The position numbers and the translations under genes are program-made. Below the pieces are notes generated by a model that was not told the DNA's origin, searched no databases, and was given only the letters and a program-made list of their open reading frames with translations. This document shows positions 31,577 to 35,507 of a DNA stretch of 64,000 nucleotides, piece by piece (positions within the stretch are counted from its first letter, which is position 1; each line of letters opens with the position of its first letter). This stretch comes from Sedimenticola sp. (lineage in GTDB: Bacteria > Pseudomonadota > Gammaproteobacteria > Chromatiales > Chromatiaceae), in contig DRKS01000003.1 in NCBI GenBank assembly GCA_011051655.1, positions 1 to 64,000 of the forward strand, in the 5' to 3' direction.

Positions 31577-32923
31577 GTGCAAGGCCGGGATACCATCGCC
31601 GCCATCGCCACCCCCAGGGGCCGTGGCGGCGTTGGCATCGTCAGGGTATCGGGAAAGGCCTGCGCCGAAATCGCCAACGCCATCCTCGGACAGGTGCCCG
31701 AGCCGCGGCACGCCTGTTTCTCTCATTTCAAAGACGCCTGCGGCGGCAGCATCGACGAGGGTATAGCCCTGTTTTTCCCCGCTCCAAGGTCTTTCACCGG
31801 CGAGGACGTACTTGAACTCCAGGGCCACGGCGGCCCCGTTGTCATGGATCTCCTGCTGGCGCGGGTGCTGGAGCTGGGTGCCCGCCTGGCCCGGCCGGGG
31901 GAGTTCAGCGAGCGGGCCTTTCTGAATGACAAGCTCGACCTGGTCCAGGCCGAGGCCATTGCCGATCTCATTGAGGCCGATACCGCCGCCGCCGCGCGGC
32001 TGGCCAGCCGTTCCCTCCAGGGGGAATTCTCCCGCTGCGTGCATGAGCTGGTGGACGCCATCACCCGGCTGCGCATCTATGTGGAGGCGGCCATCGATTT
32101 TCCGGAGGAGGAGATCGATTTTCTATCGGATGGCAAAGTAAGCGCTGACTTACAGTCTGTCCTCGACCGGCTGAAGGCCGTCAAGCAGAGTGCGGGGGTG
32201 GGCCGGTTGCTGCGGGACGGTATGCAGCTGGTCATCGCCGGCCGCCCAAATGCCGGAAAATCCAGCCTGCTCAACGCCCTGTCCGGCAGGGAGAGCGCCA
32301 TTGTGACGGAAATCCCCGGCACCACCCGCGACCTGCTGCGGGAGCAGATCCAGATCGACGGCATGCCGCTCCATCTCATAGACACCGCGGGCCTGCGCGA
32401 GCATGCGGAAGCGATCGAGCGCGAGGGCATCCGCCGCGCCCGCGAGGAGATTGGCCGGGCCGACCGGGTCCTCTGGGTCTTCGACGACCAGTCGGACCCG
32501 GCGCACGACGCCCTGGATCGCCGCAGTCTCCCTCCGGATATCCCTCTGACCCTGGTGCGCAACAAGATCGACCTTACGGGAACCGCCGCCGGATTACGCC
32601 AAACCGATGCAGGGCCGGAGATCTCCATTTCGGCCACCACCGGCGCGGGCATGGACCAATTGCGGGAGCATCTCAAGCAGAGCATGGGCTACCATGGCGC
32701 AGGTGAGGGGGAGTTCATCGCCCGCCGACGCCACCTCGACGCCCTGGACCGGGCCAGGGCCCATCTTGTTCAGGGGCAGGCGGTTTTGCTCCAGGCCGGC
32801 AGTGGAGAGCTGTTGGCGGAGGATCTGCGCCAGGCCCGGCAGGCCTTGTCGGAGATAACGGGTGAATTCACCTCCGAGGATCTCCTGGGGGAGATCTTCT
32901 CCAGTTTTTGCATAGGAAAGTGA
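31577..32923 (+). CDS. mnmE: tRNA modification GTPase MnmE
   Basis: 448 aa. With MnmG it adds carboxymethylaminomethyl groups to wobble uridines of tRNA. The N-terminus [16 protein letters not shown] is conserved, G1 [10 protein letters not shown] lies at about 221, G3 DTAGLRE, and the C-terminal FCIGK catalytic cysteine motif is intact. GTG 31577 is the best start, because the protein aligns with E. coli from the next residues; there is no strong ribosome site, so coupling to yidC is likely. Confidence 0.95.
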
Positions 32924-32938
32924 GAATGCCGAAAGGGA

Positions 32939-33187
32939 TCAGGCCACGTTCTTGAACTTGACCCTGCCCTGAGCCGGGAAGCTGAGAATACCCTTTTGCC
33001 GGCGCAGCTCCCGCAAGTACAGCTTCCCGGCCCGGTATCCTTCCCGGAAGGAGAGCCGCAACTCCCGGGCCTTTCTTATCTGGCCACCCTTGAGGGCGTG
33101 CAGAAAACCGGAGCAGAAGCGTTGTTCGATGAGATGCCCAGGTATGGCGATGCCGATTTCCTGGGGGGTTGGATAGCGGTGCTGCAT
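32939..33187 (-). CDS. Small basic protein of unknown function
   Basis: 82 aa, rich in Arg, Lys and Gly, no membrane segment or signal peptide, one Cys. I do not recognise the family. Support for a real gene is a strong ribosome site, GGGAGG six bases before ATG 33187, and sensible codon usage. It ends 15 bases from mnmE, convergent with it. A TATAAC -10-like hexamer lies in the upstream 33188-33270 stretch. The repeat element starts at 33271. A function cannot be given. Confidence 0.6.
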   Translation of the reverse strand: MQHRYPTPQEIGIAIPGHLIEQRFCSGFLHALKGGQIRKARELRLSFREGYRAGKLYLRELRRQKGILSFPAQGRVKFKNVA

Positions 33188-33270
33188 GGCGAACCTCCCG
33201 CATGCAATTGATGTTGTTATAAACAGCGGCGGCGGGAGTGAAACCTTAAGGCCTTAGCCCGGCCGCGTAC

Positions 33271-33594
33271 GCTTAACCCGCATTTCTCACCAGGATTTGG
33301 ATTTTTGGGGCAAGCTGGCGAAGCAGGTTGGACGATCGGCCGCCGAAGCATAGCCGTAGCTATGATTCAAGGCTGATCGTTCAAGATGCGAAGCCAGATT
33401 GATGGAATACATCCTTGTATTCCACCCCTTCGGGGTCGCTGCGCGGTCCAAATTCGCTCCAGGCGAATTTGTGTTCCAAAAACCAAATAGGACAGAGCAT
33501 AAATGAACCGCCATCACCTTATGAGGCTAAGTACATTGAATTTCATAAATTTCTCAATTAACCGGGTCCGCCTGGTGAGAAATGCGGGTTAAGC
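33271..33594 (+). repeat. Structured element with perfect 24-bp terminal inverted repeats (copy 2)
   Basis: The ends 33271-33294 and 33571-33594 are perfect inverted repeats of 24 bases, starting GCTTAACCCGCATTTCTC. Inside is an imperfect long hairpin (33315-33397) with apex CATAGC-CGTA-GCTATG (33349-33364). Three short perfect hairpins follow: 33404-33423, 33424-33436 and 33450-33470. The subterminal ATTTGGATTTTTGG (33295-33308) is a near inverted match of 33476-33488. This 442-base gap (33188-33629) has no other gene. It looks like a MITE or decayed IS; no transposase is present. It ends about 35 bases before mnmG. Confidence 0.85.
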
Positions 33595-33629
33595 TAAAAT
33601 AGGCCGCTTTCCCGGCGGTTTTCTGAGCT

Positions 33630-35507
33630 ATGTTTCATGCGGAGTCCTATGAGGTCATTGTAGTGGGTGGCGGCCACGCCGGCGCCGAGGCGGCGCTGGC
33701 GGCGGCGCGCATGGGGGCGCGCACCCTGCTGCTGACCCACAACATCGAGACCCTGGGGCAGATGAGCTGCAATCCGGCCATCGGCGGCATCGGCAAGGGC
33801 CACCTGGTGCGGGAGCTGGACGCCCTGGGGGGGCTTATGGCCAGGGCCGCGGACCGCAGCGGCATCCAGTTCCGCATCCTCAACGCCCGCAAGGGACCGG
33901 CGGTGCGGGCCACCCGCGCCCAGGCGGACCGGGCGCTCTACAAGGCGGCGGTGCGTTCGGCCCTGGAGCACCAGCCGAATCTCGAGATCTTTCAGCAGGC
34001 GGTGGATGACCTAATAGTGGAGGGCGGGCGGGTGGCGGGCGTGGTCACCCGGATGGGCCTGCGCTTCAGGGCGCCGGCCGTGGTGTTGGCCGTGGGCACC
34101 TTCCTGGGGGGGCGCATCCATATCGGCCTTTCCAGTTATGAGGGCGGCCGGGCGGGAGATCCGCCCTCCAACGCCCTGGCCCGGCGGTTGCGGGAGCTGC
34201 CCTTCGATGTGGGGCGGCTGAAGACCGGCACGCCGCCCCGCATCGACGCCCGCAGCATCGACTTCAGCGGCCTGCGGGAGCAACCCGGTGACGAACCGGT
34301 GCCGGTATTCTCCTTTCTCGGCCGGCGCGAAGAGCACCCCCGGCAGGTGAGCTGCTTCATCACCCACACCAATGAGCGTACCCATGAGATCATCCGCGGC
34401 GGCCTCTCCCGCTCGCCCCTGTACGCGGGGGTGATCGAGGGGGCCGGGCCGCGTTATTGCCCCTCCATCGAGGACAAGGTGGTGCGTTTTGCGGACAGGC
34501 CGTCCCACCAGATCTTTATCGAACCCGAGGGGCTGGAGACCACGGAGGTCTACCCCAACGGCATCTCCACCAGCCTCCCCTTCGATGTGCAGCACGAGCT
34601 GGTGCGTTCCATGCGGGGGTTCGAGAACGCCCGCATCACCCGCCCCGGTTACGCCATCGAATACGATTTCTTCGACCCCCGCGGGCTGCGTCCCTCCCTG
34701 GAGACCCGTCACCTGGAGGGGCTGTTTTTCGCCGGCCAGATCAACGGCACCACCGGCTACGAGGAGGCCGCCGCCCAGGGATTGCTGGCGGGACTGAACG
34801 CGGTCCTGAAGCTGCGGGATGAGGACCCCTGGTGCCCCCGCCGGGACCAGGCCTATCTCGGGGTGCTGGTGGACGACCTCATCACCCGCGGCACCCGCGA
34901 GCCCTACCGCATGTTCACCAGCCGGGCGGAGTACCGCCTGCTGCTGCGGGAGGACAATGCGGATCTGCGCCTGACCGAAAAGGGCCGGGAGCTGGGGCTG
35001 GTGGATGACCAGCGCTGGGCCGTCTTCGACCGCAAGCGCGAGGCCATCGAGCGGGAGCGGCAGCGATTGCGGGATTGCTGGGTGCATCCCGGGAAGGTCT
35101 CCGGGCAACAGATCCAGACCCTGTTGCACGGCGCCCTGTCACGGGAGGCCCGGGCCCTGGATCTCCTGGCCAGGCCCCAGGTTTCCTATAGGGATCTGAT
35201 GGGCCTGCCCGGGGTCGGGCCGGGCGTGGAGGACCCCGGGGTGGCCGAGCAGCTGGAGATCCAGGCCAAGTACGCCGGCTACATCCAGCGCCAGCAGGAT
35301 GAGATCGAACGCCAGCGCCGGCACGAGTCGCTGGCGCTGCCGGATGATTTCGACTACGGCCGGGTCCGGGGTCTCTCTTCCGAGGTGCGGGAGAAACTGA
35401 GCCGCCACCGCCCCACCACCCTGGGCCAGGCGTCACGCATACCAGGCGTCACACCGGCGGCGATCTCCCTGCTGCTGATCCAGTTGAAGCGCAAATCGAA
35501 ATGCTGA
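33630..35507 (+). CDS. mnmG: tRNA uridine 5-carboxymethylaminomethyl modification enzyme MnmG
   Basis: 625 aa. FAD enzyme that works with MnmE on wobble U34. The FAD site [21 protein letters not shown] (abridged at about 9-29), [13 protein letters not shown], and the C-terminal helical MnmE-binding domain are all visible. ATG 33630 has no strong ribosome site. It is separated from mnmE by the small gene and the repeat, so it probably needs its own promoter; the repeat lies where that promoter should be. Confidence 0.97.

Follow-up and report, generated by a model that had tools for sequence, protein, structure and literature searches.

A multicopy MITE with IS1380-type ends and a covarying internal fold lies upstream of mnmG in Sedimenticola sp.

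Results

The element in front of mnmG and its ends

The window analyzed here is a stretch of 64,000 nucleotides from Sedimenticola sp. (assembly GCA_011051655.1, contig DRKS01000003.1, positions 1 to 64,000), in which a MITE, i.e., a short non-coding element with terminal inverted repeats (TIRs), a target duplication, many copies and ends in common with IS1380, is located 41 bp before the start codon of mnmG. An open reading frame of 82 amino acids (32939-33187, minus strand) lies between mnmE and the MITE; it has no match in Pfam, and no counterpart was seen close to mnmG in the relatives examined. The features of the locus are as follows.

33273-33276, no strand: left target duplication TTAA; YTAR is duplicated in other copies, including non-palindromic cases (TTAG/TTAG, CTAA/CTAA)
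33277-33588, plus: MITE copy of the 312-bp class, ends from the alignment of 19 complete copies
33277-33294, plus: left TIR, CCCGCATTTCTCACCAGG, from the inverted repeat and the copy alignment
33295-33354, plus: 5' arm of hairpin P2, from covariation
33349-33364, plus: apical hairpin of P2 (CATAGC CGTA GCTATG), the most conserved part of the covariance model
33359-33399, plus: upper part of the 3' arm of P2, from the core alignment and covariation
33400-33471, no strand: nested 72-bp hairpin repeat, inserted in the basal 3' arm of P2 and not present in the classes of 158 and 240 bp
33472-33488, plus: basal part of the 3' arm of P2, from the copy and core alignments
33490-33493, plus: 5' strand of helix P3 (GGAC), within the conserved motif AGGACARACYGT; third pair complementary in 42/43 elements
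33494-33565, plus: variable loop of P3, its length roughly kept, its sequence not
33566-33569, plus: 3' strand of P3 (GTCC), from the same complementarity test (42/43 elements)
33571-33588, minus: right TIR, from the inverted repeat and the copy alignment
33589-33592, no strand: right target duplication TTAA, from the comparison of copies
33595-33600, plus: TAAAAT, putative -10 box of mnmG, 2 nt past the right target duplication

A preliminary description of the locus had delimited the unit as 33271-33594, with perfect TIRs of 24 bp. The terminal segments (33271-33294 and 33571-33594) do match at 24/24 positions, but the comparison of copies places the ends at 33277 and 33588, so that the proposed unit extended 6 bp too far in both directions and the true TIR is 18 bp long. 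The remainder of the 24 bp consists of the palindromic TTAA and two outermost bases (GC/GC) that agree by chance. Since non-palindromic pairs (TTAG/TTAG and CTAA/CTAA) flank other copies, the TTAA outside the TIR is the target duplication rather than a part of the repeat. Across the aligned complete copies, the element reads CCCGC...GCGGG at its ends, and its 158-312 bp contain only chance reading frames, none of them for a transposase. The TIR pattern has three matches in the window, as compared to 0.04 expected by chance. A second, truncated MITE copy with a TTAA duplication is found at positions 1-145, where the contig also begins.

Copies in the genome and the site upstream of mnmG

The 324-nt stretch has dozens of relatives within the same assembly. 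We count about 50 copies of this jumping repeat, the one in front of mnmG included, and 91 sites that match the TIR pattern, as compared to none for the reversed control. Many of these are half-copies, because a large number of the contigs in this assembly terminate within a copy. The complete copies fall into size classes of 158, 240 and 312 bp. The smallest consists of the TIR and a hairpin, a bare palindrome that lacks P3 and yet has spread; the second adds a variable region to this plan, and the third adds the 72-bp insertion to the second.

The insertion sites are YTAR tetranucleotides (TTAA, CTAG, TTAG, CTAA). The 4-bp duplication is exact in 13 of the 18 complete copies from this genome and one transition off in 4 more, and the flanks of other copies read CTAG/CTAG, TTAG/TTAG or CTAA/CTAA. 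The same is seen in a single-contig genome of 3.0 Mb (G144:C1), which contains 429 sites of a related TIR and about 200 elements. These results show the mobility of a multicopy MITE, in agreement with the earlier suggestion of a non-autonomous mobile element.

If the stretch were a regulatory region of mnmG kept in place, such as a leader or an attenuator, this would account for its position 41 bp from the start codon, and relatives would be expected to have it at the same site as their only copy. With about 90 TIR sites and dozens of copies elsewhere, with a target duplication, and with the element lying upstream of the -10 box, we find this reading extremely improbable and consider a regulatory region specific to mnmG refuted. 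Moreover, no element was seen upstream of mnmG in 13 relatives of the same family, as judged by eye and by a check for the TIR over 120 bp. Boxes of the form TAnnnT, similar to the putative -10 box, are present upstream of mnmG in several relatives at about -34 to -43, and this MITE copy probably sits between the -10 box and the former upstream region, which it has probably replaced. A promoter and terminator scan of positions 32900-33700 gave nothing above chance and no strong -35 box. In a relative (L418, genome G005), mnmG is preceded by CTATTCTCGGACAGGCTCC, which resembles one terminus of the second MITE scaffold described below and would be a different repeat at the same gene.

Relationship to IS1380

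Fragments of an IS1380 transposase (PF13701, a family related to piggyBac) were identified at the ends of contigs C43 and C14, directly inside the same TIR as that of the MITE. The left end of the insertion sequence on C43 reads TTAA followed by CCCGCATTTCTCACCAT and then MKTECTPKQLAFQSLGRREV, and its fragment is assigned to IS1380 by NCBIfam NF033539 (E = 1.6e-22), with a score below the whole-protein cut-off because the contig holds only 107 amino acids of the protein. The IS1380 of this genome is known only from such left ends at contig breaks. Complete elements were recovered from two other genomes. One of them, G364, has an IS1380 of 1761 bp with the TIR CCCGGATTTCTC and the flanks CTAG/CTTG, and the MITEs of that genome carry the variant CCCGGATTTCTCACC, which is the same as the TIR of its insertion sequence. 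The other, G180, has an IS1380 of 1763 bp, the TIR of which is perfect over 30 bp and the flanks of which read CTAG/CTAG.

The TIR CCCG(C/G)ATTTCTCACC and the YTAR duplication are common to the MITE, the G364 insertion sequence and the left ends in the Sedimenticola genome, from which we infer mobilization of the MITE in trans by an IS1380 transposase. The MITE differs from the family in having no transposase and in an interior that has nothing in common with the insertion sequences beyond the terminal 16-18 bp. The 137-nt core described below was not found inside the complete elements of G364 and G180, and we therefore rejected the idea that the MITE is an internal-deletion derivative of the insertion sequence.

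A PF01609 transposase on contig C10 was set aside as a partner, with no matching TIR in the 1.7 kb examined. The PF13701 profile search gave no match in several of the core-bearing genomes. In G144, it gave no match above the cut-off and four weak ones, to frames of identical length (398 amino acids), which may be the transposase of that genome.

A conserved core with compensatory changes

The folding energy of the 324-nt strand is -154.3 kcal/mol (z = -10.2), a stability that none of 100 shuffled sequences attained. The conserved core begins at 33292, with a covariance model match (model R1) at 33292-33430, and consists of 137 nt. It forms P2, a long and imperfect hairpin whose internal loops, symmetric as well as asymmetric, are fixed and kept in all lineages. 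The 12 sequences of the first comparison all gave a core length of 137-138 nt, leaving out an extra insertion in one of them. The nested pair that had been noticed at 33295-33308 and 33476-33488 is the basal helix of P2.

RNAalifold on the aligned cores yielded 65 pairs, 32 of which have double changes. For the named P2 structure of 48 pairs, 95.1% of the cells are paired as compared to 84.1% after shuffling, and 25 of the pairs have double compensatory changes as compared to 10.9; none of 500 shuffles reached the observed values for pairing or double changes. Within one genome, 42 cells are double-changed, as compared to 14.6 in shuffled data. The covariation shows that the fold is conserved through compensatory changes across gammaproteobacterial genera. 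Nothing in Rfam reaches the gathering score, the only match being a chance one (18.5 bits versus 70).

The second helix, P3, joins the motif AGGN.., which follows P2, to N'CCGCC, which precedes the right TIR; the two are separated by a region of about 72-82 nt that is not conserved in sequence. In 43 elements, the variable base pair was C-G in 16, A-U in 15, U-A in 7, U-G in 3 and G-U in 1, with one mismatch, as compared to about 46% complementarity expected from the base frequencies alone (our arithmetic on those counts). The evidence for P3 is this position-specific test at the conserved motif only; a generic complementarity count in a loosely set window did not exceed that of shuffles.

Distribution of the core and nested repeats

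Searches with the interior against 369 genomes of the class gave matches in 26, some only via the nested 72-bp repeat, and the covariance model matched 22 of the 369 at E <= 1e-5, many with several copies. A different sample of genomes from the phylum added just three with matches to the model, and these were weak. Detected TIR pairs that enclose 225-275 bp, mostly 240-245 bp, surround 54 of the 77 distinct core sites, and the core lies 15-16 nt from the element end in nearly all TIR-paired sites. The TIR varies by lineage yet keeps CCCG-AT-TT--CA, with CCCGGATATTGCACCAAGG as one variant around the core in relatives. Named carriers of the core are Thiodiazotropha, Tamilnaduibacter and gammaproteobacterial MAGs, and the closest interior from a named host is that of Candidatus Thiodiazotropha (L261; 90% over 114 bp). 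A Thiodiazotropha symbiont and Tamilnaduibacter salinus are, like the present species, rich in copies. Contigs from many phyla contain the same TIR start, frequently in pairs of MITE size that are flanked by YTAR duplicates. Distant blastn searches of plasmid and phage records gave no match to the element; one viral contig in IMG/VR has the TIR pattern (L269:84-102).

The preliminary description listed one long imperfect and three short perfect hairpins. The long one is P2, but two interior hairpins (33400-33471) belong to the later 72-bp insertion, a multi-hairpin repeat that is present in only about 13 copies and is possibly a separate mobile palindromic repeat. MITEs in G144 (L448:17970-18286 and L449:9492-9808) have a 72-bp hairpin insert at a nearby place that looks related and has the opposite direction. 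Stretches similar to the 72-bp repeat also stand alone in over ten other genomes.

A second kind of MITE scaffold (L336, L380, L383, L384), about 150-159 bp in length, has unrelated ends, (GAGG)CTGTCCGAGAATAG and CAGTCTGTCGGACTTAGG. Its hairpin has a weak match to the same covariance model, centered on the apical ATAGC..GCTAT.

Strand preference of the fold

We compared the counts of G-U and A-C. Across 57 clusters, G-U was recorded 188 times versus 69 for A-C, and 133 versus 68 once GU-rich columns were dropped, in alignments that were fitted to a plus-strand model and among copies of shared ancestry. At two pairs in the G144 copies, U-G is more frequent than any other state, with A-C in few copies. 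The copies from the Sedimenticola genome gave 3 against 3, being too alike and with few changes. In a cruciform, no preference for G-T over A-C would be expected, and the excess is thus suggestive, though only suggestive, of action as one strand, most simply RNA. The orientation relative to neighboring genes was unbiased in 25 copies from G144, with genes called by a crude open reading frame method, and a strand-specific role in cis is therefore not favored.

Both observations bear on the alternative in which single-stranded DNA or a cruciform is the active form of the fold, for example by helping transposition or replication. The unbiased orientation agrees with it, as does the folding of the whole element, TIRs included, as one unit. 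A cruciform uses both strands, however, and would tolerate G-T and A-C equally, which is not what the counts show, and ends and target duplications of the same kind occur in IS1380 elements without the core. We consider a role at the DNA level improbable.

According to another alternative, the element is an ordinary MITE that is mobile and nothing else, its arms kept complementary by template switching or gene conversion and its occurrence in several genera due to horizontal transfer. Long palindromes are prone to arm-to-arm correction, the copies in the Sedimenticola genome differ very little, as they would following a recent burst, and the 158-bp class is a bare palindrome. Such correction would nevertheless erase internal loops, whereas those of P2 are kept, and the loop that P3 closes is variable and not a palindrome. 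The constant length of the core and the preference for G-U over A-C also argue against it. This explanation is somewhat unlikely in our view.

Discussion

We consider it very likely that the element is a MITE moved by an IS1380-type transposase and carrying a selected structured cargo that most likely acts as RNA. An IS1380-family transposase acting in trans would recognize the TIRs, excise the MITE and insert it at YTAR, thereby duplicating 4 bp. The interior would be a separate structured cargo rather than a shrunken insertion sequence, with a three-way arrangement closed by the TIRs, in which P2 is the long imperfect hairpin and P3 the short helix that closes the variable loop. Selection would keep this fold across gammaproteobacterial genera while the TIRs change by lineage. 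The RNA would most likely come from the plus strand of the element, by read-through from neighboring genes, and it would alter the processing or stability of host transcripts or aid the persistence of the element, as proposed for some bcr elements of Bacillus cereus. The earlier suggestion of a folded, RNA-bearing repeat is borne out as regards the fold, which is kept by covariation across genera; a function as RNA, with an effect on transcripts, is what we infer from the sequences.

A bolder reading, which we put forward tentatively as one that may or may not hold, is that of a previously undescribed mobile structured RNA of the Gammaproteobacteria. A three-way junction of fixed length would ride between successive, diverging IS1380-type ends, and perhaps also in a second, unrelated MITE scaffold, and would act in transcripts, so that the cargo and not the ends would be the conserved unit.

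Short intergenic hairpin repeats in many copies are also known as REP/BIME, ERIC and Correia (NEMIS) elements, which differ from the present MITE in size, ends and target sites. A structured RNA inside a mobile element, as proposed here, is found in HEARO, the omega RNA of IscB-type elements; the present element differs in that it has no Rfam match and no nuclease gene. Among the repeats bcr1-bcr18 of the Bacillus cereus group, bcr1-3 are MITE-like, bcr10 and bcr18 have conserved secondary structures and are predicted to be functional RNA elements, and about half of all copies are located in mRNAs (PMC3446304). As MITE-like repeats, some with conserved RNA structure, that are present in mRNAs, they provide a precedent for the present MITE, but they are confined to one species group, whereas the core described here is found in many genera with different TIR variants. 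We know of no sequence relation between the two. In the open-access literature covered by our search, we found no description of this TIR or of an IS1380 MITE with this structure.

MITEs are usually viewed as decayed insertion sequences that are defined by their ends, whereas here the ends change and the internal fold is held by compensatory mutations. This suggests that the cargo of a non-autonomous element can be a nucleic-acid structure under selection. Some species offer a test case, in that their natural insertions number in the hundreds per genome (a genome of 3.0 Mb has 429 TIR sites) and the effects of these on neighboring transcripts would be readable by RNA-seq.
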